Below, one piece after another: positions 8,104-20,772 of a stretch of 64,000 nucleotides of DNA. Below the pieces are notes generated by a model, which worked only from the letters and a program-made list of their open reading frames with translations, had not been told where the DNA came from and ran no database searches. Within the stretch, counting starts at the first letter, position 1; each line of letters begins with the position of its first letter. The position numbers were made by a program, and so were the translations under genes. This stretch comes from Rhodospirillales bacterium. GTDB lineage: Bacteria > Pseudomonadota > Alphaproteobacteria > ATCC43930 > CGMCC-115725. The DNA lies in contig CANJCB010000011.1 of assembly GCA_947473305.1 (NCBI GenBank), forward strand, positions 1 through 64,000, in the 5' to 3' direction.

Positions 8104-8796
8104 TCATCCCGTCAAAGGGAAGCGCTGCAGGATGCGAAAATCCGCGCCGGGCGACGGTTCGTGGAAGAGCGTGACGCCGTCGATCGGGAGCGGATCGCGG
8201 CAATAAGGCTCGGCCAGCGGGACCAGGGCGGAGAGCGCCCGGTCGCGAATCCCCTCCTCCAGCGAATCCGTCAGCGTCATGTGGAAACGGAAAGTGTCGA
8301 AGACATATGGATAGCCCCAGCGCGTCAGATGCTCCTCCTGCCGGGGGGTGAGCGTCGCGCGCTTGCGCTTGGCGGTCTCGGCCTCCGAGGGCGGTGCCCG
8401 AAAGGCGTCAAACCGCTCGACGCAGGCATCGGCCAAGGCGTGAAGCTCCGATTCATGCGCCGAGGGGACCAAGGCGATGAAACACCCGACCGCCTTCACC
8501 CGCAGGGGTGCGATCCGGAACGCCGGTCGTCCGGCGGCGAAGGCGGACACCGCCTCGACCAGTTCCGATAGCGTCCGTCCCGGCGCCAGCGCGAAGGGAG
8601 GCTTCAGCGTGGCGTGAAAGCCGTAGCGGCGTGGAGATCCGGTGATCCCCTGAATTTCCTCGACCGTGAAACCCTGGATCCCAGGTGGCTCCAGGGAGGC
8701 GCCTGTCCAGGCGCTGCGCCCGAGCCAGGCGCTGCCGAAGCGGTCGAGAGGGGTGCCCTCCGCCGGGGCAAAATAGAGGCCGAAACGTTCCATCAT
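8104..8796 (-). CDS. phosphonate-operon 2H phosphoesterase (DUF1045)
   Basis: A 230-residue protein of the family repeatedly found in C-P lyase operons (DUF1045/TIGR03223-like). It opens with MMERFGLYFAPAEGTPLDRF and carries the two 2H-phosphoesterase tetrapeptides: HATLKPPF (about residue 60) and HMTLTDSL (about residue 174). In the 2H superfamily these two histidines act as acid and base on cyclic phosphate esters. PhnP, the usual cyclic phosphodiesterase of this pathway, is absent from the window, so this protein is a good candidate to open 5-phosphoribosyl 1,2-cyclic phosphate. It is divergent from phnC with about 140 bases between. Function is inferred from motif and context. Confidence 0.82.
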   Translation of the reverse strand: MMERFGLYFAPAEGTPLDRFGSAWLGRSAWTGASLEPPGIQGFTVEEIQGITGSPRRYGFHATLKPPFALAPGRTLSELVEAVSAFAAGRPAFRIAPLRVKAVGCFIALVPSAHESELHALADACVERFDAFRAPPSEAETAKRKRATLTPRQEEHLTRWGYPYVFDTFRFHMTLTDSLEEGIRDRALSALVPLAEPYCRDPLPIDGVTLFHEPSPGADFRILQRFPLTG

Positions 8797-8936
8797 GCGT
8801 CCAAGGTGCCGTTCGCCGAGGGATTGCGCAAGCGCCCGCGAGGGAGCGCAACATGATCGTCATGAAAGGGTAATCCCGGAGTCACGCCAGGGGTTTAGTG
8901 AGGGTCCAGTCCCCACTCGCAGAAAGCCCCAGCGCG

Positions 8937-9821
8937 ATGCCGCCAGCGATCCAAATCGCCCATCTCGACAAGACTTTCGCACCTCAGCGCGGCAAGCAGC
9001 CCCGCAAAGCCCTCAACGATCTGTCCCTCAATGTCGCTCCCGGCGAGATGGTGGCGCTCATCGGGCCTTCAGGGTCCGGGAAGTCGACCTTGCTGCGCCA
9101 TGTCTCCGGCCTCGTGACCGGCGACCGCTGCCAACGCGCCTGGGTTTCGGTCGGCGGCCAACCGATCCAACAGGGCGGCCGCCTCGTCAGGGGCGTGCGC
9201 GAGAGGCGCAGCCGTATCGGTTTCGTCTTCCAGCAATTCAATCTGGTCGGTCGCCTCTCCGTATTGGGCAATGTGCTCGCCGGAAGATTGGGGCAGGCCT
9301 CGACCTGGCGCGGGCTTCTCTCGCTTTGGACCGATCAGGAGAAGCGCGCCGCCATGGTGGCGCTCGCCCGGGTCGGGATTTCCGAGATCGCGGGACAGCG
9401 CGCTTCGACCCTTTCCGGCGGCCAGCAGCAGCGGGCGGCCATCGCCCGGACCCTGGTCCAGGGCGCACAGGTCATTCTCGCCGATGAGCCGATCGCCTCC
9501 CTCGATCCCGAATCCGCGCGCCGCGTCATGGAGATCCTGGCCCAGATCAACCGCGAGGACGGGGTCACGGTTCTTGTGACGCTCCATCAGGTCGATTACG
9601 CGACGCGCTATTGCCGGCGGGTCGTGGCGCTGCGCGAAGGCGCCATCGTCTTCGACGGCACGCCCGAGGAACTGACGCCCGCCCTGCTGCGGGACATCTA
9701 TGGCGCGGAACTCGATTTCGCGCTGCCGACCAGCACCCCGGTCCGCGAGGCGCCGCCCCGCGCCGCCGAACGGTCGCGGCAACCCGCCGAAGCCTTCCGG
9801 CTCGGCACCGTCAACGTCTGA
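8937..9821 (+). CDS. phnC: phosphonate ABC transporter ATP-binding protein
   Basis: A 294-residue ATPase of the PhnC family. Walker A is [14 protein letters not shown], the signature [16 protein letters not shown] and Walker [16 protein letters not shown], followed by the H-loop [15 protein letters not shown], a form typical of PhnC. The ATG at 8937 is used because conserved sequence begins at [12 protein letters not shown]; an in-frame GTG at 8898 preceded by GGGG is the alternative. First gene of phnC-phnD-phnE, which import phosphonates and possibly phosphate or phosphite. The C-terminal 25 residues (arginine/proline rich) extend beyond the usual end. Confidence 0.9.
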
Positions 9822-9851: not shown

Positions 9852-10841
9852 ATGTTCCAGAAAGCATTGCTGGCCGGCGGCCTCGTCGCGCTGAGCGTGA
9901 CGGTCGCTAACGCGGCCGACGCCCCGAAGGAATTGACCTTCGGCGTGATCTCGACGGAAAGCTCCCAGGCGCTCCGCACCAAGTGGGAGCCTTTCATCGA
10001 AGACCTGCAGAAATCGATCGGCATGCCGATCAAGGCCGCTTATGCCACCGACTATGCCGGCATCATCGAAGGCATGCGCTTCGGCAAGGTCCAACTCGCT
10101 TGGTACGGCAACAAGTCGGCCATGGAAGCCGTTGACCGCGCCGATGGCCAGGTCTTCGTCCAGAGCACTTCCGCGGACGGCACGGCGGGCTATTACTCGG
10201 TGATCCTGGTCCATCGCGACAGCGAGATCAAAACGCTCGAGGACCTGCTGAAGAACGGCAAGAGCTACACCTTCGGCAATGGCGATCCGAATTCGACTTC
10301 GGGCTTCCTGGTTCCGAGCTATTACGTCTTCGCCAAGAACAACGTCGATCCCAAGACCGCCTTCAAGCGGATGGTGACGGCCAATCACGAAACCAACATC
10401 CTGGCGGTCGCCAACAAGCAGCTCGACGCCGCCACGAACAACACGGAGCAGCTCTCCTTCACCGAGAAGAACGCCCCGGAGAAATTCAAGGAAGTCCGGA
10501 TCCTCTGGAAATCGCCGATCATCCCGAACGATCCGATCGTCTGGCGCAAGGACCTGCCGGATGACGTGAAGGCGAAGCTCAAGATCTTCTTCGCGAATTA
10601 CGGGGTCAAGGGCACGCCCGAGGAAGTGCATCATGCGAAGGAAGTCCTTAACGGCATGCGCTGGGGTCCTTTCAAGGAATCCTCCGACCGCCAGCTGATT
10701 CCGATCCGTCAGCTCGAACTCTTCCGCGACCGGACCAAGGTTGCCAACGACGAGAGCCTGGCGGCCGACGCGAAGAAGGCGAAACTCGCGGAGTTCGACG
10801 CGAAGCTCGCCGAACTCGACAAGCAGGCTCAGGGTTCGTGA
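9852..10841 (+). CDS. phnD: phosphonate ABC transporter periplasmic binding protein
   Basis: A 329-residue exported protein; signal peptide MFQKALLAGGLVALSVTVANA. Family marks of PhnD are GVISTESSQALRTKWEPFIEDLQKSIG near the N-terminus, YAGIIEGMRFGKVQLAWYGNKSA (the ligand-site region with the conserved Trp-Tyr-Gly) and GYYSVILVHRDSEIKTLEDL. It would deliver phosphonates to PhnE/PhnC from the periplasm. AGAGGGGAATTACG before the ATG is a good ribosome-binding site. A terminator-like hairpin follows directly, which would make this high-abundance binding protein more expressed than phnE. Confidence 0.92.
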   Translation: MFQKALLAGGLVALSVTVANAADAPKELTFGVISTESSQALRTKWEPFIEDLQKSIGMPIKAAYATDYAGIIEGMRFGKVQLAWYGNKSAMEAVDRADGQVFVQSTSADGTAGYYSVILVHRDSEIKTLEDLLKNGKSYTFGNGDPNSTSGFLVPSYYVFAKNNVDPKTAFKRMVTANHETNILAVANKQLDAATNNTEQLSFTEKNAPEKFKEVRILWKSPIIPNDPIVWRKDLPDDVKAKLKIFFANYGVKGTPEEVHHAKEVLNGMRWGPFKESSDRQLIPIRQLELFRDRTKVANDESLAADAKKAKLAEFDAKLAELDKQAQGS

Positions 10842-10881: not shown

Positions 10882-10901
10882 CCATCTTGCCGGATAGATC
10901 C

Positions 10902-11699
10902 ATGACCGCCGCCCAAGCAAGCCTGGAGCCGCCGCGCCGGGATCTCAGGACCTCCGTGGTGAAGCTCCTGAGTTGGGCCGCCATCTTCGGCGTGCTGGCC
11001 TGGGCCTGGGAAGGTGCCGAGATGCGCCCGCTCGAATTCCTGCGCGGCAGCGGCAATATGCTCACCTTTGCCAAGGACTTCTTCCCGCCCGATTTTCACG
11101 ACTGGAGGCTCTATCTCCAGGAAATGGTGATTACCGTGCAGATCGCCATCTGGGGCACCGCCCTCGCGGTGGTCCTGGCGATCCCGCTCGGGATCCTTTC
11201 CTCGTCCAACGTCGTGCCCTGGTGGGTCTATCAGCCGGTGCGCCGGGTCATGGACGCCTTACGCTCGATCAACGAGATGGTCTGGGCGCTGCTCTTCGTG
11301 ACGACGGTGGGCCTTGGCCCCTTCACGGGCGTGCTCGCCCTCTTCGTCCATACGACCGGCATCCTGGCGAAGCTCTTCTCCGAAGCCATCGAGGCCTGCG
11401 ATCCCGGACCCGTGGAGGGCATCCGCTCCACCGGGGCCAGCGCCCTGGGCGAGATCGTCTACGGCATCCTGCCCCAGGTGCTGCCGCTCTGGATTTCCTT
11501 CGCGCTCTACCGCTTCGAATCGAATATCCGCGCCGCGACTGTGGTCGGGATCGTCGGAGCCGGCGGGATCGGCGTCGTGCTCTGGGAAGTGATCCGGTCC
11601 TTCCACTACGCCCAGACGACGGCGGCGATGATCTTCATCATCCTGACCGTGACTGCCTTCGACGTGGCCTCGGCCCAGCTCCGCAAGGCCTTTATCTGA
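10902..11699 (+). CDS. phnE: phosphonate ABC transporter permease
   Basis: A 265-residue permease with about five to six membrane segments. The binding-protein-dependent permease motif (EAA loop) is seen as [33 protein letters not shown], and the PhnE-type [12 protein letters not shown] and [16 protein letters not shown] are clear. Start is the ATG at 10902; a TTG at 10887 in frame is less likely because it overlaps the terminator stem region. Only one permease gene is present, while many alphaproteobacteria have phnE1 and phnE2. Its end overlaps the convergent gntR gene by 8 bases. Confidence 0.9.
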
Positions 11700-12582: not shown

Positions 12583-13560
12583 ATGGCACTCCCTCCTTCA
12601 CGGCGGTTGGATTTCGCGGAAGTTCCGGTGATCGACCTCGGCCCCTTGCTGAAAGACGGGCCGGTAAAAGCCAAGTCGACGGTCGACGCGATCGCCAAGG
12701 CGTGTACCGAAGTCGGCTTCATGCAGGTGGTGAATCATGGCGTTTCCGATGCCGCCATCGAGCGGGTCATCGCTGAATCCGCACCCTTCTTCGCCCTGCC
12801 GCTGGAAGAGCGGAACGAGATCGCGATCTCGAACTCGCCGCAGTTCCGAGGCTATCTCCCGCTCAAGTACAAGGGCGAGCAGACCTCGGGCGAGATCCAC
12901 CAGGAAGCCTTCATCATGTTCCATGACAAGCCCGAAAGCGCTTGCCCCATGGACGGACCGAACCTGTGGCCTTCGAGCCGGCCCGGCTTCCGCAAGGCCT
13001 TCGAGGATTATTTCCCCCTGACCGAGAAGCTCGGCATGTCGATGCTGCCCGCTTTCGCGCTGGCCATGGGCAAGGCCCCGGACTTCTTCACCGAGATGTT
13101 CCGCGACCCGATGATGATGCTGAAGGTCAATCACTACCCGCCCCAGGCCGTGGTCGAGCACGACAAGGAGATCGGGGTCACCGCCCATTCCGATTCAGGG
13201 GCCTTCACGATTCTCTGGCAGGACGATGTGGGCGGGCTCGAGATCATGAACAAGAGCGGCGAATGGGTCGGCGTCCCCCCGATCAAGGGCGCCTATGTGA
13301 TCAATCTCGGCAATATGATGCAGATCTGGTCGAATGGCCGCTTCTCGTCGACGCCGCATCGGGTGATCAACCGCTCCGGCCTCGACCGCTATTCGGTCCC
13401 GACCTTCGTGAACCCGAACTACTACACGATGATCGAGCCGCTGGTCGGCACCCCCGCCCCGGATTTCGTGCCCTATATGAGCGGCGACGAGCAGTTCGAC
13501 CTTTATTGGCGGATCTATCCGCAGAAGACGAAGCGGGTCCGGGAACCGGCGACGGTTTAA
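12583..13560 (+). CDS. 2-oxoglutarate/Fe(II) oxygenase, isopenicillin-N-synthase-like
   Basis: A 325-residue enzyme with an N-terminal DIOX_N part (VPVIDLGPLL, then VGFMQVVNHGVSDAAIE) and a C-terminal double-stranded beta-helix. Iron ligands are readable: His202 and Asp204 in VTAHSDSGAFTI, and His259 in SSTPHRVIN; the RYS motif that binds the 2OG carboxylate is Arg269-Tyr270-Ser271. All residues for catalysis are present. Plant and bacterial relatives hydroxylate or desaturate diverse small molecules. It is single on this strand, divergent from a GntR regulator, and converges on the PhnZ-like gene. A role in oxidising a phosphonate before the HD oxygenase is an inference from position only. 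Confidence 0.85.
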   Translation: MALPPSRRLDFAEVPVIDLGPLLKDGPVKAKSTVDAIAKACTEVGFMQVVNHGVSDAAIERVIAESAPFFALPLEERNEIAISNSPQFRGYLPLKYKGEQTSGEIHQEAFIMFHDKPESACPMDGPNLWPSSRPGFRKAFEDYFPLTEKLGMSMLPAFALAMGKAPDFFTEMFRDPMMMLKVNHYPPQAVVEHDKEIGVTAHSDSGAFTILWQDDVGGLEIMNKSGEWVGVPPIKGAYVINLGNMMQIWSNGRFSSTPHRVINRSGLDRYSVPTFVNPNYYTMIEPLVGTPAPDFVPYMSGDEQFDLYWRIYPQKTKRVREPATV

Positions 13561-13584: not shown

Positions 13585-13720
13585 CCCTCTCCGTCCCTTG
13601 GGGGAGAGGGTTGGGTGAGGTGGCCCTGCCACCGGCGAGATGCTCCGGCGCCTCAGCGCCCTCGCCCCACCTCATCCTAAATCCTTCTCCCCCCAGGGGG
13701 CTGAGAAGGACTTTGCACCG
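13585..13720. repeat. dispersed intergenic repeat with inverted halves
   Basis: CCCTCTCCGTCCCTTGGGGG followed by AGAGGGTTGGGTGAGG on the left is mirrored by CCTCATCCTAAATCC and TTCTCCCCCCAGGGGGC on the right. This is a well-known type of repeat in alphaproteobacterial genomes. The right half runs into the 3' end of the PhnZ-like gene, so that gene's last residues (KSFSAPWGEKDLG) and stop codon are encoded by repeat sequence. Confidence 0.65.
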
Positions 13721-14271
13721 GGGCCGGCCGCCCTCACCTCTTCCACATAGCGGCGGAAATGGGCGAAGGGCGGGGTCTTCAGATCGGGGACCTTCGCCTG
13801 GTCGTCCCAGCGGCGAAGCTTCGCCGCGTCCTCGGCATAGGGTTTGGCGATAAACGCCTCGGCTTCCGCCTCTGAGAAGGGGCCGCCCTGCAGTTCCAGG
13901 CTCCGCACCGAAACCGGAGACAGAAGCCCGAAATAATCCCTGTCGGTGGCGCAGAGATAGCGCTTGGCGTCCACATGAAGCCAGATCGGGTAGGCGACAT
14001 CCGGCCCCAGAACATCCATGAGCTGCTTGCCCCCGATCACCTCATGCTTGCTGTCGATGCCGCGCAGCGCCGGGGCGAGGCCCTCCTTATGCAAAAGGTG
14101 CCCGATGTCATGGAGCAGGCAGGCTGCGATGAGCGCCGGGCTCGATCCCGCCTGTTCGGCGAGATAGGCCGTCTGGATCGCATGTTCGCGATGGGAGATG
14201 CGCTCCCCGCCATATTGAACCTCGGCCTTGCGCTCGACCAGATCGAGCAGCGTATCGATATCCACAGCCAT
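13672..14271 (-). CDS. PhnZ-like HD-domain mixed-valent di-iron oxygenase
   Basis: A 199-residue HD-domain protein at the end of the C-P lyase operon. Start is the ATG at 14271 behind GGGGAGGG, 13 bases after phnM. Ligands known for PhnZ (which cleaves 1-hydroxy-2-aminoethylphosphonate to glycine and phosphate with O2) can be matched with a constant offset: the Tyr20..Glu23 lid pair in QYGGERISH, His30, His54-Asp55 and His58 in CLLHDIGHLLH, His76 in SKHEVIGG and His99 in PIWLHVDAKR. The same protein family is noted as 'phosphonate operon HDIG protein'. It is probably an oxygenase rather than a phosphohydrolase. The last 13 residues come from a repeat element. Substrate unknown. Confidence 0.85.
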   Translation of the reverse strand: MAVDIDTLLDLVERKAEVQYGGERISHREHAIQTAYLAEQAGSSPALIAACLLHDIGHLLHKEGLAPALRGIDSKHEVIGGKQLMDVLGPDVAYPIWLHVDAKRYLCATDRDYFGLLSPVSVRSLELQGGPFSEAEAEAFIAKPYAEDAAKLRRWDDQAKVPDLKTPPFAHFRRYVEEVRAAGPGAKSFSAPWGEKDLG

Positions 14272-14284
14272 GGAACCCTCCCCT

Positions 14285-15430
14285 TCAGATGACCCGGACG
14301 GCGTCCCGCCAGACCTGGCGGACCAGCGGCAGCCCATCGATCTTCCGCACCTGGGCAAGGTCGGCGCGCTGACCCACGGCGATCTCGCCGCGATCCGTGA
14401 TCCCCACCGCGCGGGCTGGCGTCTTGCTCGCCATGGCGATGCCCTCGGAGAGGGTGAAGCCCGCCCCCGACTCCCCGAGCAGGAAAGCCGCGTGGACGAG
14501 ACTGACCGGCATATAATCCGACGAGATGATATCTAGCATCCGGCGATCCGCGAGATCCCGGCTCGAAAGGTTCCCGGAATGGGACTTGCCCCGCACCACG
14601 TTGGGCGCGCCCATCAAGACCTGGAGCCCGGCACTGTGAGACGCTTCGGCCGCTTCGAAGGTGGTCGGGAATTCGGCGATCGCCATGCCCTCGGAAATCG
14701 CCTCGTTCACATGATCCAGGGTGGCGTCGTCGTGGCTTGCGAGGGTCAGCCCGCGATCCTTCGCCATCGCCACGATGGCCTTCCGATTGCGGCCGGCATA
14801 CTGCTCGTGGGCGGCCTGCTGCTTGACCGCGAATTTGCTGAACTCGTCGTCCGACCAAGCGTATTTCTTCTGGTAGTAATAGCGGTAGGATTCCAGCGTC
14901 GTGAACTGCCGCTGACCCGGCGTGTGATCCATCAGCGACGCCATGTCGAGCAGCGAATTGTCGAGGAAAGTCTCGAAGAGCTCGGCGCAATTTTCATAGC
15001 TGACTTCGCAGCGCAGATGGAGCCGATGGCAGATGCGGAGGGTGTCCTGCTTCTGGGCCGCTTCAATGGTGCCGACCATCTCTCGGAGGAGTTCGAGCCG
15101 ATCCCCGCCCGCCGCCGTCTGCCCCACCGTCACCGCGTCATAAACCGTGGTGATGCCCGCTGCCGCGACCTGGGCGTCATGGGCGACTACCGCCGCCAGG
15201 CCCGGCCAGCGCACGCCGGGACGCGGCACGAAATGCTTTTCGAGATTGTCGGTATGGAGTTCGACGAGACCGGGGATCAGGTAATCCCCGTCGAGATCGA
15301 CGGCGTCCGAAGCCCGGCTCGCGCCCTCGGCGATCTCGACGATCACCCCGTCCTTGATGCGGAGCGTGCCCTCGATCACCGCATCGGCGGTGACGATGCG
15401 GGCGTTGGTGATGATGGTTTCCTGTCTCAT
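14285..15430 (-). CDS. phnM: alpha-D-ribose 1-methylphosphonate 5-triphosphate diphosphatase
   Basis: A 381-residue amidohydrolase-fold enzyme. It releases pyrophosphate from ribose 1-alkylphosphonate 5-triphosphate, giving the PhnJ substrate. Family marks: DGDYLIPGLVELHTDNLEKHFVPRPGV (metal ligands His, His and the PhnM-specific TDNLEKH), CHRLHLRCEV, ASHDDATLDHV, and late IISSDYMPVSLV with the catalytic Asp. Length fits the family (about 380). Its start overlaps phnL's end by four bases (ATGA). Confidence 0.93.
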   Translation of the reverse strand: MRQETIITNARIVTADAVIEGTLRIKDGVIVEIAEGASRASDAVDLDGDYLIPGLVELHTDNLEKHFVPRPGVRWPGLAAVVAHDAQVAAAGITTVYDAVTVGQTAAGGDRLELLREMVGTIEAAQKQDTLRICHRLHLRCEVSYENCAELFETFLDNSLLDMASLMDHTPGQRQFTTLESYRYYYQKKYAWSDDEFSKFAVKQQAAHEQYAGRNRKAIVAMAKDRGLTLASHDDATLDHVNEAISEGMAIAEFPTTFEAAEASHSAGLQVLMGAPNVVRGKSHSGNLSSRDLADRRMLDIISSDYMPVSLVHAAFLLGESGAGFTLSEGIAMASKTPARAVGITDRGEIAVGQRADLAQVRKIDGLPLVRQVWRDAVRVI

Positions 15431-16122
15431 GCGGTCTCCGCTGTCTGCATCGGATAGAGCCGGGTCGCCAGCGCCTCGCGCACCTCCCGGTCGTGGAATA
15501 TGCCGAGGATCGCGGCGCCGCGTTTGCGCGCCTCCTCGATGAGGCCTTGGACCGCGCTGCGGTTCGTCGCGTCGAGCGAAGCCGTGGGCTCGTCAAGCAA
15601 TAATACCGGATAGGGCGCCGCAAAGCCTCGCGCGATATTGACCCGCTGCTGCTCGCCACCGGAGAAGGTCGCGGGCGCGAGCTTCCAGAGCCGCTCCGGG
15701 ATGTTCAGCCGCTGGAGCAGATCCGCCGCCCGCTGCCGCGCGGTCTCGATATCGGTGCCGAGCGCGCGCAGCGGTTCCGCCACTACATCCAACGCCGACA
15801 CACGAGGCACGGCACGAAGGAATTGGCTCACATAGCCGAGTGTCTTGCGCCGGACCTCCAGCACCAGCCGGGGCGGCGCACCGACCATATCCACGATCTG
15901 CGCGTCATGGCGGATCAGAACGTGGCCCGCCTGCGGCATGTAATTGGCGTAGATTGCTCGCATCAAGGTCGATTTTCCAACGCCGGAAGGTCCGTCGAGG
16001 GCGACGCATTCGCCGGCCTCGATAGCGAAATTCACGTTGTTCAAAACCTCGAAACGGGTGCCGCCCTGGTTATGAAGCGTGAAGCCTTTTTCGAGATCGA
16101 TGATGCGCAGAAGCTCGGTCAT
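15427..16122 (-). CDS. phnL: C-P lyase accessory ABC-type ATPase PhnL
   Basis: A 231-residue ABC-type ATPase. Walker A is GPSGVGKSTLMRAIYANY with PhnL-typical 'ANYMPQAG', signature FSGGEQQRVNIARGFA and Walker B VLLLDEPTASLD. PhnL is required for methylphosphonate use and works with the PhnGHI nucleosidase step rather than in membrane transport. No permease partner is encoded. One base separates it from phnK. Confidence 0.93.
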   Translation of the reverse strand: MTELLRIIDLEKGFTLHNQGGTRFEVLNNVNFAIEAGECVALDGPSGVGKSTLMRAIYANYMPQAGHVLIRHDAQIVDMVGAPPRLVLEVRRKTLGYVSQFLRAVPRVSALDVVAEPLRALGTDIETARQRAADLLQRLNIPERLWKLAPATFSGGEQQRVNIARGFAAPYPVLLLDEPTASLDATNRSAVQGLIEEARKRGAAILGIFHDREVREALATRLYPMQTAETA

Positions 16123-16123
16123 G

Positions 16124-16936
16124 TCAGGCCTGCAGGATCGCCGAAGCGAGAAGCTGGGTATAGGGATGCTGCGGATCGTCCAGCACCTGATCGGTGAGGC
16201 CGCTCTCCACCACCTCGCCGCCGCGCATGACCATGAGCCGATGCGCCAGGAGCCGCGCCACGCCCAGGTCGTGGGTGACGATCACCGCCGCCAGGCCGAG
16301 GTCGCGCACCAGCCCGCGCAAGAGATCCAGCAACCGCGCCTGGACCGACACGTCGAGCCCGCCGGTCGGCTCGTCCATGAAGACAAGGCGCGGATTGCTG
16401 ACGAGATTGCGCGCGATCTGGAGCCGCTGCTGCATGCCGCCGGAGAAATCCCGGGGCAGGTCGTCGATGCGCTGGGTCTCGATCTCTACCTTGTCGAGCC
16501 AATCCGTGGCCGCCGCGCGGATCGCGCCGTAGTGCCGTGCACCGACGGCCATGAGCCGCTCGCCCACATTGGCCCCGGCGCTGACCGAAAGCCGCAGTCC
16601 GTCACGCGGATTCTGATGGACGAAGCCCCAGTCGGTGCGGGTGAGCAACCGACGTCGGGGCTCCGACAGCGCAAAGATGTCGGCCATCTCGCCATCCCGC
16701 ATCCGGTAGTGGATGGTGCCCGATGTAGGTTCCAGTCGCGCGGCGAGGCAATTCAAGAGCGTCGTTTTGCCCGAGCCCGATTCCCCCACGACGCCCAGCA
16801 CTTCGCCGGGCCAAAGCTGGAAGGAAACGTCCTCACAGCCGACCCTTCCGCCATAGAGCTTGGTCAGCCCCTGGACATCGAGGAGCGGCGCTTCCTCGGC
16901 AATCGGAGAGACGTCGGCGAGATCAAGCCGGCTCAT
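16124..16936 (-). CDS. phnK: C-P lyase core-associated ABC-type ATPase PhnK
   Basis: A 270-residue ATPase related to oligopeptide transporter ATPases. Walker A is GESGSGKTTLLNCL, signature FSGGMQQRLQIARNLV, Walker B LVFMDEPTGGLDVSVQ. The insert HYRMRDGEMADIFALSEPRRR is characteristic of PhnK. In the known complex PhnK binds PhnJ in the PhnG2H2I2J2K assembly. The start overlaps the end of phnJ by 14 bases. Confidence 0.94.
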   Translation of the reverse strand: MSRLDLADVSPIAEEAPLLDVQGLTKLYGGRVGCEDVSFQLWPGEVLGVVGESGSGKTTLLNCLAARLEPTSGTIHYRMRDGEMADIFALSEPRRRLLTRTDWGFVHQNPRDGLRLSVSAGANVGERLMAVGARHYGAIRAAATDWLDKVEIETQRIDDLPRDFSGGMQQRLQIARNLVSNPRLVFMDEPTGGLDVSVQARLLDLLRGLVRDLGLAAVIVTHDLGVARLLAHRLMVMRGGEVVESGLTDQVLDDPQHPYTQLLASAILQA

Positions 16937-17801
16937 CGCCGCTCTCCTTCCGCCGCTCGCCGCAATAATCGGTATCGGAGCAGACGAACATGCGCCCGCC
17001 CTTGTCGTCGGTGATCACCTCGTCGAGGAAGCTTTCCGTGGAGCCGCAGATCGCGCAGGCCTCGTCCCAGCTCTCGATGGTGAAGGGATGGTCCTCGAAA
17101 TCGAGGCTCTTCACCGAGGTATAGGGCGGCACCGCATAGATCCGCTTCTCACGTCCCGCGCCGAAGAGCTGCAAGGCCGGGCACATGTCCAGCTTCGGAT
17201 TGTCGAACTTCGGGATCGGCGAGGGCCGCATCAGGTAGCGGCCATCGACCATCACGGGATAATCGTAAGCCGTCGTGACCCGCCCATAGCGCGCGATGTC
17301 CTCATAGAGCTTCACATGCATCGGCCCGTATTCGGAGAGCGCGTGCATCTTTCGGGTCTCGGCCTCCCGGGGCTCCAGCCAACGCAGAGGCTCCGGCACC
17401 GGGACCTGATAAACGATAATCTGGTCGTCGCGCAGCTTGGTTTCCGGCACCCGGTGGCGGGTCTGGACGATGGTCGCCTCGATGGTGCGCTCGGTGGTGG
17501 CGACGCCGGTGGTGCGGCCGAAGAATTTGCGGATCGAGACGGCGTTGGTCGTGTCGTCCGCCCCCTGATCGATCACCTTCAACACATCCGCTTGGCCGAT
17601 GATGCTGGCGGTCACCTGGATGCCGCCCGTACCCCAGCCATAGGGCAGCGGCATCTCGCGGCTGGCGAAGGGAACCTGATAGCCCGGCACCGCCACCGCC
17701 TTCAGGATGGCGCGGCGGATCATCCGCTTCGTCTGCTCGTCGAGATAGGCGAAGTTGTAGCCGGTGGTCGTGGCGGCGGTCGCGCTGGTCCCGTCCATCA
17801 T
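16923..17801 (-). CDS. phnJ: alpha-D-ribose 1-methylphosphonate 5-phosphate C-P lyase (radical SAM)
   Basis: A 292-residue enzyme that breaks the carbon-phosphorus bond using S-adenosylmethionine and a 4Fe-4S cluster. The unusual cysteine pattern of PhnJ is complete: Cys249-X2-Cys252-X21-Cys274 for the cluster and Cys280 five residues later, seen in ACAICGS and FVCSDTDYC. Spacing is identical to that in E. coli PhnJ. Other family marks are GYNFAYLDEQTKRMIRRAILKA at the N-terminus and PLPYGWGTGGIQ. The final residues are charged. It overlaps phnI by four bases and phnK by 14. Confidence 0.97.
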   Translation of the reverse strand: MMDGTSATAATTTGYNFAYLDEQTKRMIRRAILKAVAVPGYQVPFASREMPLPYGWGTGGIQVTASIIGQADVLKVIDQGADDTTNAVSIRKFFGRTTGVATTERTIEATIVQTRHRVPETKLRDDQIIVYQVPVPEPLRWLEPREAETRKMHALSEYGPMHVKLYEDIARYGRVTTAYDYPVMVDGRYLMRPSPIPKFDNPKLDMCPALQLFGAGREKRIYAVPPYTSVKSLDFEDHPFTIESWDEACAICGSTESFLDEVITDDKGGRMFVCSDTDYCGERRKESGDEPA

Positions 17802-18865
17802 TCCGCAGCCTCCCCCCGCATCCGGCGGACAAGATTCAGCTCCGCCTGGAAGTCCACGTAATGCGGCAGCTTCAGATGCTGGACGAAGCCTGAGGCTTCG
17901 ACGCTGTCCGAATGATAGAGCACGAATTCCTGGTCCTGGGCGGGAGCGGAAACGGTTTCATCCAATTCCTCGGCCCGGAGCGCCCGGTCCACCAGCGCCA
18001 TGGCCATGGCCTTGCGCTCGCTCTCGCCGAAGGCAAGACCGTAACCCCGGGTGAATTGTGGGGGCACGGTCGCCGAGCCTTTGAATTGGTTCACCATCTC
18101 GCATTCGGTGACGGTCATCTCGCCGATCACCACGGGAAAACCGAGTTCCTCCGGCACAATCTCGACCTCGACATCGCAGAGCCGGATTTCGCCCGCGAAA
18201 GGATGGTTGCGGCCATAGCCGCGCTGGGTCGAATAACCCATGGCCAGCAGAAAGCCCTCGTCGCCCCGCGCGAGATTTTGCAGTCGCACCGAACGCGAGG
18301 CCGGAAACCTCAGCGGTTCCCGCGTGACATCGCCGTCGGGCTCGTCGCCCTGGGGGATGGCTTCGATCAACCCTTCCTGGTTCAAAACATCGGCAACCCT
18401 GGGCGTCGGATCGAGGCTTACCGTCGCCTCGTCCGGCGGGTGAACTTGGGCTCGGCCCTCCGCCGCAAGCGTGAAATCCAGGAGCCGGTGGGTGTAGTCG
18501 AAAGTCGGACCCAGGACCTGCCCACCCGGCACATCCTTGAAGGTCGCGGAGATGCGCCGCCGCACCGTGCCCCCGCCCGTCTCGATCGGCTTGGTGACAG
18601 CCAATCTCGGCAAGGTCGCGCGATAGGCCCGCAGCAGGAAGATCGCCTCTACCAGATCGCCGCGCGCCTGCTTGATCGCCAGGGCCGCCAGTTCCCGGTC
18701 ATAGACCGAGCCTTCCGTCATCACCCGGTCCACGGACAAGGCCAATTGCTCGGAGATCTGGTCGAGCGAGATTTCCGGCACCTTGGGATCGCCCCGCCGC
18801 GCCCGGTCGAGCATTCCATGGGCCGCATCGATAGCCCGTTCCCCGCCTTTGACCGCGACATACAT
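17798..18865 (-). CDS. phnI: C-P lyase core subunit PhnI
   Basis: A 355-residue protein of the PhnI family, starting MYVAVKGGERAIDAAHGMLD, the typical PhnI N-terminus. Later marks include the segment ending SVRLQNLARGDEGFLLAMGYSTQRGYGRNHPF. PhnI is the nucleosidase that, with PhnG and PhnH, transfers the phosphonate to the ribose C1 of ATP with loss of adenine. Three bases separate it from phnH; four bases overlap phnJ. Confidence 0.95.
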   Translation of the reverse strand: MYVAVKGGERAIDAAHGMLDRARRGDPKVPEISLDQISEQLALSVDRVMTEGSVYDRELAALAIKQARGDLVEAIFLLRAYRATLPRLAVTKPIETGGGTVRRRISATFKDVPGGQVLGPTFDYTHRLLDFTLAAEGRAQVHPPDEATVSLDPTPRVADVLNQEGLIEAIPQGDEPDGDVTREPLRFPASRSVRLQNLARGDEGFLLAMGYSTQRGYGRNHPFAGEIRLCDVEVEIVPEELGFPVVIGEMTVTECEMVNQFKGSATVPPQFTRGYGLAFGESERKAMAMALVDRALRAEELDETVSAPAQDQEFVLYHSDSVEASGFVQHLKLPHYVDFQAELNLVRRMRGEAAE

Positions 18866-18868
18866 GGC

Positions 18869-19471
18869 TCAGGCCTCCTTGATCCGGGTCGAGCGGGGCA
18901 GCGCCGCCAACTCGTCGCCGCAGGCAAAAACGATATCGACTCCGCGCGGAAACATCGCCTGGAGTTCCACGCGCTGCTGCCAAAAGCCGGCGGGCAGCCC
19001 CTCTATGGATAGGCTCGCGGTCTCCTGGATGCCGGGACCGGACAATGTGACCGCCCCTCCGGTCCGCAGACTCTCCACGCAGATAATCAGCGTCGTCGTT
19101 CGATCCGGGAACTCGTCGGTGCCGAGGTCAAAGCCGTCGAGCGCCGGCACGTCGCCGCCGGCAATCGCGAAACTCGCTTTGCGAGGTTCCGCCACAACCG
19201 GGCAACCGCAATGGAACCGAAGATAGCCCGCGGCGCCGCTCATCGAAGGCGAAAGCCAAAGCGGGGTATCGAGATCAAGAAGCGCCAGGGCGAAGGCCGT
19301 CGCCGCCCTGCCGAGCGAGCCGGGAGCCGCGATCCCCGGCGACACCGGCACCCGCTCGATCCGTCCCGGCCGCGCGAAGGCCGCGAGCGCCGCGCGGAAG
19401 CTTGCTTGAGAGTCATGGACCGGATCGGCGAAACCGGGAGCCAGACTCTCCGTGGCGAAGATCTGCGCCAT
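18869..19471 (-). CDS. phnH: C-P lyase core subunit PhnH
   Basis: A 200-residue protein. Start is the ATG at 19471 (MAQIFATESLAPGFADPVHDSQASFRAAL), two bases after the phnG stop; longer upstream sequence in this frame is overlap with phnG. The 'GFADPVHDSQ..FR..L.A.ARPG' start is diagnostic for PhnH. The subunit is a structural part of the PhnGHIJ core. Length matches the family. Confidence 0.94.
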   Translation of the reverse strand: MAQIFATESLAPGFADPVHDSQASFRAALAAFARPGRIERVPVSPGIAAPGSLGRAATAFALALLDLDTPLWLSPSMSGAAGYLRFHCGCPVVAEPRKASFAIAGGDVPALDGFDLGTDEFPDRTTTLIICVESLRTGGAVTLSGPGIQETASLSIEGLPAGFWQQRVELQAMFPRGVDIVFACGDELAALPRSTRIKEA

Positions 19472-19473
19472 GC

Positions 19474-19935
19474 TTATTCCCCCCGCACCAGGGTGAAAAA
19501 TTCGACACGGGTCTTCGCCGTATCGGTCGCCTGCCGCTTTTTCGCGCCGGCCTGGGCCTCGGCGAGCGGTGCCACCACGCCCTTCTTCACCAGAGCGTGC
19601 CAGCGCCCATCCTGCAGCATGGCATCGAAAGCCGCCGCCAGTTCCGCATGGCGCTGGTTGCGTCCCGCAGCATGGGCGAAACCGGCAATCGCTTCGCCCG
19701 CCTCGCCCGTCATCTGAACGGCGGCGCGGGTCATGGTCATCTCGCCCATGTTGAAGGCCTGGCCCGTGCCGCCGATCCGGCCGCGCACCATGGCGAGCCC
19801 GGTCTCGGGCTTGCGCAGGAAGCGATAGGCCGGAGGCTCGGGGATCGCCGACCACAGGGCTTCCAACTCGTCGCCCCGGGCCTTGGCCAGCACCGCCATC
19901 CAGGCTTGTCGATCTTTCGTCTCGATTTCTGGCAT
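19474..19935 (-). CDS. phnG: C-P lyase core subunit PhnG
   Basis: A 153-residue protein with the family's N-terminal RQAWMAVLAKARGDEL and the central ETGLAMVRGRIGGTGQAFNMGEMTMTRAAVQ, including the GGTG..FN.GE motif. Three ATGs are possible (19962, 19947, 19935). I chose 19935 (MPEIETKDRQ) because it gives the usual length of about 150 residues and places the operator palindromes upstream of the coding region. No strong Shine-Dalgarno sequence is seen for any of them. First gene of the operon phnGHIJKLM-HD oxygenase. Confidence 0.93.
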   Translation of the reverse strand: MPEIETKDRQAWMAVLAKARGDELEALWSAIPEPPAYRFLRKPETGLAMVRGRIGGTGQAFNMGEMTMTRAAVQMTGEAGEAIAGFAHAAGRNQRHAELAAAFDAMLQDGRWHALVKKGVVAPLAEAQAGAKKRQATDTAKTRVEFFTLVRGE

Positions 19936-19936
19936 G

Positions 19937-19961
19937 GACAAATTCATAATTTGTCTAGACA
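19937..19961. promoter_or_regulatory. overlapping palindromes, PhnF operator of the C-P lyase operon
   Basis: TGTCTAGACA (19952-19961) is a perfect ten-base palindrome. Its core GTCTAGAC fits the published HutC-subfamily operator pattern GT-N-TA-N-AC exactly. A second inverted repeat, GACAAATT and AATTTGTC around a 3-base centre (19937-19955), overlaps it. PhnF, the divergent gene product, belongs to the HutC subfamily. The site lies just downstream of the promoter-like boxes for phnG, fitting repression by blocking polymerase. Confidence 0.75.
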
Positions 19962-19980
19962 TCCGTATCTTAGTCGGCAC

Positions 19981-20046: not shown

Positions 20047-20772
20047 ATGGAAGAGATCGAGCGGGGCAGCGGCGTGTCGCTCTGGCGTCAGATCGAGCAG
20101 ACCCTGCTGCAGGAGATATCGGCGGGCGTGCTGCATCCCGGCGACAAGCTGCCGACCGAACAGGAGCTTTCGGCGCGCTTCGACGTCAATCGCCACACGG
20201 TGCGCCGCGCGGTGGCGGCGCTTGTCCAGCGCGGCATCGTTAGCGTGACCCAAGGCCGGGGCAGCTTCGTTCAGGAAGAGGTGATCGACTATCCGATCGG
20301 CAAGCGGACCCGCTTCAGCGAGAACCTGAAGCGTCAGAACCGCTCGCCCGGCGGTCGGCTCGTGCGCTCCGAGCAGCGACCGGCGAACGGGATCGTCTCG
20401 AAAGGACTGGAAATCCCCCCTGGGACGCCGGTCCTGATGATCGAACTGGTGGGCGAGGCCGACAGTGTGCCGATCAGCACAAGCCTGCACTTCTTCCCCT
20501 GGGACCGTTTCGCCGGCATGGCCGAGGGCTACGCGGAAACCCATTCGATCACTCAGGCGCTGGCCCGCTGCGGTGTCGCGGACTATACCCGCAAGCAGAC
20601 GAACATCACCGCCCGCCTGCCTTCGGCGGAAGAAGCAAGGCTCTTGCGCCAAATGCCCGGGAGGCCGATCCTCCATGTGGAGAGCGTCAACCTTGACGAG
20701 ACGGGAACCCCGATCCAATTCAGTATCGTGAGCTTCGCCGGCGACCGCGTCCAAATGGTGGTGGAAAACTAG
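20047..20772 (+). CDS. phnF: GntR/HutC-family repressor of phosphonate genes
   Basis: A 241-residue regulator. The winged helix is seen as LLQEISAGVLHPGDKLPTEQELSARFDVNRHTVRRAVAALVQRGIV (about residues 17-62), then a UTRA effector domain. Divergent from phnG with a 111-base gap containing a HutC-type operator. PhnF proteins sense a phosphonate-related ligand or phosphate status and repress phn genes. Start ATG at 20047 follows GGGAGGGTC. Confidence 0.92.
   Translation: MEEIERGSGVSLWRQIEQTLLQEISAGVLHPGDKLPTEQELSARFDVNRHTVRRAVAALVQRGIVSVTQGRGSFVQEEVIDYPIGKRTRFSENLKRQNRSPGGRLVRSEQRPANGIVSKGLEIPPGTPVLMIELVGEADSVPISTSLHFFPWDRFAGMAEGYAETHSITQALARCGVADYTRKQTNITARLPSAEEARLLRQMPGRPILHVESVNLDETGTPIQFSIVSFAGDRVQMVVEN

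Follow-up and report, generated by a model that had tools for sequence, protein, structure and literature searches.

The window, a 64,000-nucleotide stretch of DNA from a Rhodospirillales bacterium, carries on its minus strand a series of genes in the order phnG-H-I-J-K-L-M-HD, where HD is a gene for an HD-domain protein. The C-P lyase genes comprise phnG (19474..19980), phnH (18869..19477), phnK (16124..16936) and phnL (15427..16122), each assigned by a family profile match; phnI (17798..18865), whose product aligns to E. coli phnI at 474 bits; phnJ (16923..17801), which has a PF06007 match of 501.9 bits at 16947-17762; and phnM (14285..15430), the only TIGR02318 match in the genome. The HD gene (13672..14271) encodes 199 amino acids in an open frame from an ATG and is assigned to the PhnZ/TmpB type by homology, profile and fold. 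The 13 minus-strand bases that separate the stop of phnM from the start of the HD gene (14272..14284) hold a ribosome-binding-like stretch, GGGGAGGG, and the HD gene is probably co-translated with phnM.

At the opposite end of the operon from the HD gene, a plus-strand gene for a GntR/UTRA regulator (20047..20772) occupies the phnF position. The window also contains a minus-strand gene for a DUF1045 (TIGR03223) phosphonate operon protein of the 2H phosphoesterase type (8104..8796), plus-strand phnC, phnD and phnE transporter genes (8898-9821, 9852-10841 and 10887-11699), and a plus-strand gene for a 2-oxoglutarate (2OG) oxygenase of the PF03171/PF14226 type (12583..13560), which is convergent with the HD gene at a distance of 0.1 kb. 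PhnN is encoded elsewhere in the genome, apart from the C-P lyase operon (G000:C24:37548-38078, 212.8 bits). No protein in the genome exceeds the cut-off for PhnP (best 66.5 bits versus 272), and DUF1045 may be the PhnP stand-in in this genome.

Kinship with PhnZ and TmpB

A phmmer search of 177,635 PDB sequences matched the HD protein to PhnZ (4mlm/4n71, 105.6 bits) and TmpB (6npa, 103 bits) at E values of about 2e-29, and returned nothing beyond three PhnZ constructs and TmpB at E values up to 10. A profile built from 42 sequences (41 from the collected loci plus that of the window protein) scored TmpB at 198.5 bits and PhnZ at 168-169 bits against the PDB, with Cas10 next at 17.3 bits and only weak Cas10/Csm1 and TRIM5 rows listed after PhnZ and TmpB. 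Judged from sequence, the match to the PhnZ/TmpB type is far beyond chance. An AlphaFold2 model of the protein (pLDDT 90.2, pTM 0.89) yielded ten Foldseek matches at E<=0.001, all of which are PhnZ or TmpB. VIA-align placed TmpB 6npa (Z 23.9, rmsd 2.2, 175 residues, 34% identity) and PhnZ (Z 23.5) ahead of all hydrolases, followed by myo-inositol oxygenase (Z 10.3), a tRNA-processing enzyme (8.9) and, lower, HD hydrolases. Because a helical model may reach a middling Z by chance, only the PhnZ and TmpB fold matches are firm. The third match, myo-inositol oxygenase (2huo, 2ibn), is also an HD oxygenase, which in a comparison based on a predicted fold is suggestive of an oxygenase. It differs from the window protein in cleaving a C-C bond, in having no YxxE lid and in sharing only 15% identity, and it is described in passages of the review PMC8177086 as sharing the mixed-valent chemistry of PhnZ and TmpB.

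The best NCBIfam match is TIGR03276, named "phosphonate degradation HD-domain oxygenase," which covers residues 5-178 with 212.4 bits (212.2 in a repeat). This score is 2.2 bits below the cut-off of 214.6, and therefore the window protein is not filed as a formal member; the cut-off is exceeded in 41 of the 99 genomes of the class that have an HD match and missed in the other 58. The family, which is the PhnHD of PMC11203657, has the same residues and the same phosphonate gene context as the window protein. Passages of that 2024 paper describe Achromobacter proteins of this family as retaining every di-iron and substrate residue found in PhnZ, TmpB and GmPhnZ1, argue for an oxygenase on that basis, and urge caution over their hydrolase name. 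Given the NCBIfam name and these passages, oxygenase chemistry is supported yet not new. The original prediction of a di-iron oxygenase rather than a phosphohydrolase is well supported by homology, fold, lid and ligands, but its remark that the HD name suggests a phosphohydrolase is outdated, since NCBIfam already names TIGR03276 an oxygenase.

The window protein shares with PhnZ of bacterium HF130_AEPn_1 (4mlm, 4n71) the six ligands, the lid (Tyr24/Glu27 in PhnZ), His62, Lys108 and the fold, and with TmpB of Leisingera caerulea (6npa) the six ligands, the YxxE lid and the fold. It scores 151.5 bits against the TmpB model (NF049941), under the cut-off of 300, and 142 bits against the model for Gimesia maris PhnZ1 (NF052439), far below the cut-off of 300. 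The Gimesia enzyme cleaves hydroxymethylphosphonate, according to passages of PMC10574752. A tree of 68 rows (the window protein, PhnZ, TmpB and 65 loci, with the fragment L039 dropped and L066 lacking an HD frame) places PhnZ together with Legionella proteins whose partner is a PhyH protein, whereas the window protein falls outside that group. Because 26 of the 65 inner branches are below 80, the tree position of the window protein is without support; the rows linked to C-P lyase do not form one clade.

Active-site residues and their variation

The candidate iron ligands all have minus-strand codons and pair with those of PhnZ and TmpB: His30 (PhnZ H34; 14182..14184), His54 and Asp55 of the HD dyad (H58/D59; 14107..14112), His76 (H80; 14044..14046), His99 (H104; 13975..13977) and Asp156 (D161; 13804..13806). 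The phmmer offset from PhnZ is 4 residues up to His76 and 5 from His99 on, after a one-residue gap, and it pairs Lys103 with PhnZ Lys108. His58 (PhnZ His62; minus-strand codon at 14098..14100) is conserved and lies outside the iron-ligand motif; we take it to be a substrate contact. The predicted lid is Y20-G-G-E23, in which the YxxE pattern is present and Tyr20 (14212..14214) and Glu23 (14203..14205), also on the minus strand, pair with PhnZ Tyr24 and Glu27 at the offset of 4; the lid role of both is that given in passages of PMC8177086. The other residue roles assigned here draw in part on passages of the same review.

That every PhnZ iron ligand is kept, as originally predicted, holds for six of six in the alignment to PhnZ and TmpB, with no mismatch at a ligand or lid position. 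Each residue that was named pairs as claimed, including the Tyr20/Glu23 lid and His99, which had been placed within one residue of a constant offset. The ligand list itself had to be amended, with Asp156 missing from it and His58 wrongly counted. The motif reported for PhnZ-type proteins in passages of PMC8177086, H...HD...H...H...D, drops His58 from the ligands and adds Asp156, and with this change the motif is complete in the window protein. According to passages of PMC11203657, this motif also occurs in some unusual bimetallic hydrolases, and thus the ligand set alone is no proof of an oxygenase. Taken together, homology, predicted fold, lid and ligands make an iron- and O2-dependent oxygenase, not a phosphohydrolase, a well-supported assignment. 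A mixed-valent Fe(II)/Fe(III) state would be expected by analogy with PhnZ, TmpB and myo-inositol oxygenase.

Conservation was counted over 111 distinct HD rows from all loci collected at that point. All six ligands are kept in 106 rows, and in three of the five exceptions a ligand column is gapped; His58 is kept in 109 rows and Lys103 in all 111. The Tyr/Glu lid, present in 91 of the 111, is less fixed than the ligands. In 31 rows, a lower bound because many collected loci span only about 3.5 kb, a phnM-type gene lies on the same strand no more than 500 bases away; 27 of these rows have the Y/E pair, and the others have FK, FK, FG and YQ. Because the lid is lost in 4 of these 31 rows, a single substrate for all is unlikely. 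Relatives that keep the ligands where the frame is whole, and do not keep the Tyr/Glu lid, occur at three loci linked to C-P lyase (L010, L037 and L061) and at L007, L018, L026, L120 and L141. Their replacements (F..K, F..G, Y..S and Y..H) suggest, so far as sequence can indicate, another substrate or gate.

Gene neighborhoods of the HD gene

A survey of 387 genomes of the class found an HD gene in 99 (E<=1e-20), phnJ in 73 and both in 57, including the window genome; these counts assume that both searches covered the same 387 genomes. The HD gene is thus found in 57 of 73 genomes with phnJ versus 42 of 314 without it (Fisher p 1e-26, with genomes that are not independent). Of the 57 genomes with both, 25 have the two genes no more than 20 kb apart, mostly at 3.2-3.7 kb, which puts the HD gene behind phnM. 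A separate collection of 65 genome_contigs loci includes 64 with an HD frame and 21 with phnI or phnJ in the stretch, and in 18 of these 21 the recognized gene that comes before the HD gene on its strand is a phnM-type gene, several stretches ending at contig ends. In G411 and in the genome of L003, the sole phnM of the genome adjoins the HD gene, and phnJ is 1.3 and 1.9 Mb away, respectively. The link between the HD gene and C-P lyase is real. Passages of PMC9381506 report that phnZ co-occurs with C-P lyase genes at 21% and that substrate-specific genes sit inside some C-P lyase operons. Our literature search found nothing on the role of the HD oxygenase in C-P lyase operons.

Relatives of the HD gene also reside in other phosphonate contexts, as revealed by Pfam and NCBIfam scans of chosen neighbors at standalone loci. 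The orders PhnW-HD-PhnX (L046, L048) and PhnX-like-HpnW-HD (L025, L029) are observed, and the HD gene lies beside a TmpA-like gene at L090, L091, L116, L132 and L135 and beside a PhnY*-like (PhyH) gene at L056 and L058. Passages of PMC8154272 report phnZ homologues in 15 of 1,186 phnWX clusters and 24 of 75 phnWAY clusters, and never with PbfA, the other enzyme for the same hydroxyphosphonate.

Several additional arrangements were encountered among these loci. An actinobacterial protein (L053:8885-10516) fuses a PhyH domain that is methylphosphonate hydroxylase-like to an HD oxygenase, and the fungal PhoF is likewise described as a PhyH–HD oxygenase fusion in passages of PMC10574752. An apparent phosphonate degrader in six Acidimicrobia/Actinomycetota loci (L060:3185-5626, L051, L057, L059, L062 and L064; Pfam run on three of the six, and the L051 frame reaching a contig end) joins a PF01663 phosphodiesterase that is weakly PhnA-like, an HD oxygenase and a TauD/TmpA-like domain, the last of which scores 305 bits to TmpA in L060. 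A DUF5690 membrane protein near the HD gene in Planctomycetota, Bacteroidota and Gammaproteobacteria (L014, L023, L029, L040 and L046; two of the five scanned with Pfam) is a candidate phosphonate permease. A protein of about 324 amino acids lies between the HD gene and an FAD oxidase/GcvT-like fusion (L013:10545-11516 and L036:10581-11567), and the L013 copy, which was scanned, has no Pfam or NCBIfam match. Four cyanobacterial loci (L009, L012, L021 and L069) have a second, divergent PhnM-like gene ahead of the HD gene, and three alphaproteobacterial stretches (L144, L145 and L151) have such a second gene near phnF or a phnC-like gene.

Possible roles of the HD oxygenase

The explanation that we favor, and consider moderately probable, is that the HD protein is a PhnZ/TmpB-type di-iron oxygenase that acts on ready-made 1-hydroxyphosphonates as a side branch, not as a C-P lyase step. 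The original prediction had proposed that the enzyme could handle a by-product or a second substrate class. Because the HD gene appears in an accessory role with many phosphonate pathways, a second substrate class would fit better than a C-P lyase step. The enzyme would bind two irons through His30, His54, Asp55, His76, His99 and Asp156, with Tyr20 capping the second iron until substrate arrives, whereupon Glu23 would swing in to meet the substrate. Oxidative C-P cleavage of an (R)-1-hydroxyphosphonate, driven by O2, would then yield phosphate together with a carboxylate, such as glycine when the substrate is 1-hydroxy-2-aminoethylphosphonate or formate when it is hydroxymethylphosphonate. Such a route can be pictured as a tributary, where PhnCDE would import phosphonates broadly, C-P lyase would handle the plain ones, and the HD oxygenase would handle those hydroxylated at C1 without ATP or ribosylation. 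The literature passages we retrieved hold no statement on C-P lyase failing with 1-hydroxyphosphonates.

Some observations sit uneasily with this explanation. The HD gene remains next to phnM even in genomes whose phnJ is 1.3-1.9 Mb distant, which a free-standing tributary would not predict, and this attachment and the C-P lyase-linked relatives that have no lid fit the tributary least. The absence of phnJ from 42 of the 99 HD-bearing genomes also counts against it.

The oxygenases of the window genome (28 PF03171 matches and 17 of the TauD type) are a further difficulty, since they leave room for an unrecognized hydroxylase partner. The protein might thus perform the second half of a PhnY*/PhnZ-like pathway, its hydroxylase being encoded elsewhere in the genome or by the convergent 2OG oxygenase gene only 0.1 kb away. 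Characterized PhnZ-type enzymes do partner a 2OG hydroxylase, according to passages of PMC8177086 and PMC10574752, and in one distant genome a related PF03171 oxygenase gene (L134:12614-13729) lies 2.3 kb from the HD gene, beside a polyamine/AEP-type transporter. However, the best scores in the window genome are 44 bits for PhnY* (cut-off 500) and 41.7 bits for TmpA (cut-off 400). These scores are generic, and a dedicated hydroxylase is not recognized; a Legionella PhyH protein adjoining an HD gene, by comparison, scores 219 bits to the PhnY* model, and TmpB is paired with TmpA whereas the window genome has no TmpA-grade protein. The neighboring oxygenase belongs to neither the PhyH nor the TauD type, and no gene of its kind was found beside the HD gene at the 64 HD loci from genome_contigs or in another 11 stretches taken from other genomes of the class (ten with the HD gene and one with the phnJ of G411). 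With 28 PF03171 genes in 4.7 Mb, about 0.12 would be expected within 10 kb by chance; two of four other genomes searched have 2-3 such matches and two have none. We rejected this neighbor as the partner because it is not conserved and can be expected by chance, with L134 the sole case in its favor, and it is probably a bystander. The pathway reading as a whole is unlikely.

Somewhat less likely still is that the HD protein acts within the C-P lyase route, on a PhnM-linked ribosylated intermediate or by-product, or that it clears a 1-hydroxy compound that jams the lyase. This proposal draws on the position of the HD gene behind phnM in most C-P lyase loci, on its staying with the only phnM of a genome when phnJ is 1.3 or 1.9 Mb off, and on the second PhnM-like paralogue directly upstream of it in four cyanobacterial loci. 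It has difficulty accommodating the 42 of 99 HD-bearing genomes without phnJ, the many relatives without any C-P lyase gene, and the absence of the HD gene from E. coli and from 16 of the 73 phnJ genomes. Moreover, in the literature consulted, the pockets of PhnZ-type enzymes are not known to take anything other than small, free hydroxyphosphonates. At longer odds, PhnM and the HD oxygenase might work as a functional pair detachable from the C-P lyase core: PhnM or the cyanobacterial paralogue would set free a 1-hydroxyphosphonate that had been bound or activated, and the HD enzyme would then cleave it with O2.

An ordinary HD phosphohydrolase, such as a PhnP or PhnN stand-in, belongs to the same superfamily and would suit a genome with no PhnP over the cut-off, but this reading is very improbable and was rejected on the phmmer, profile, Foldseek and VIA-align results, given that no hydrolase appears by sequence even at E 10, hydrolases are listed by fold yet rank below PhnZ, TmpB and myo-inositol oxygenase, the YxxE lid, His58 and Lys103 are kept, PhnN exists elsewhere in the genome, and HD genes lie beside phnN and DUF1045 in many loci. 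Because HD genes and DUF1045 occur together, DUF1045 is the likelier PhnP stand-in.

Action on preformed 1-hydroxyphosphonates would also bear on how these genes are counted. Surveys score phnZ-like genes as 2-aminoethylphosphonate degradation, with estimates that vary widely according to passages of PMC10574752, and such counts would misjudge the pathway if PhnZ-type oxygenases are commonly C-P lyase accessories that act on these compounds. A PhnM–HD pair, if true, would give the C-P lyase pathway a second way out, an oxidative one. Likewise, if the side branch that we favor is real, C-P lyase operons would include an O2-dependent release of phosphate without methane.
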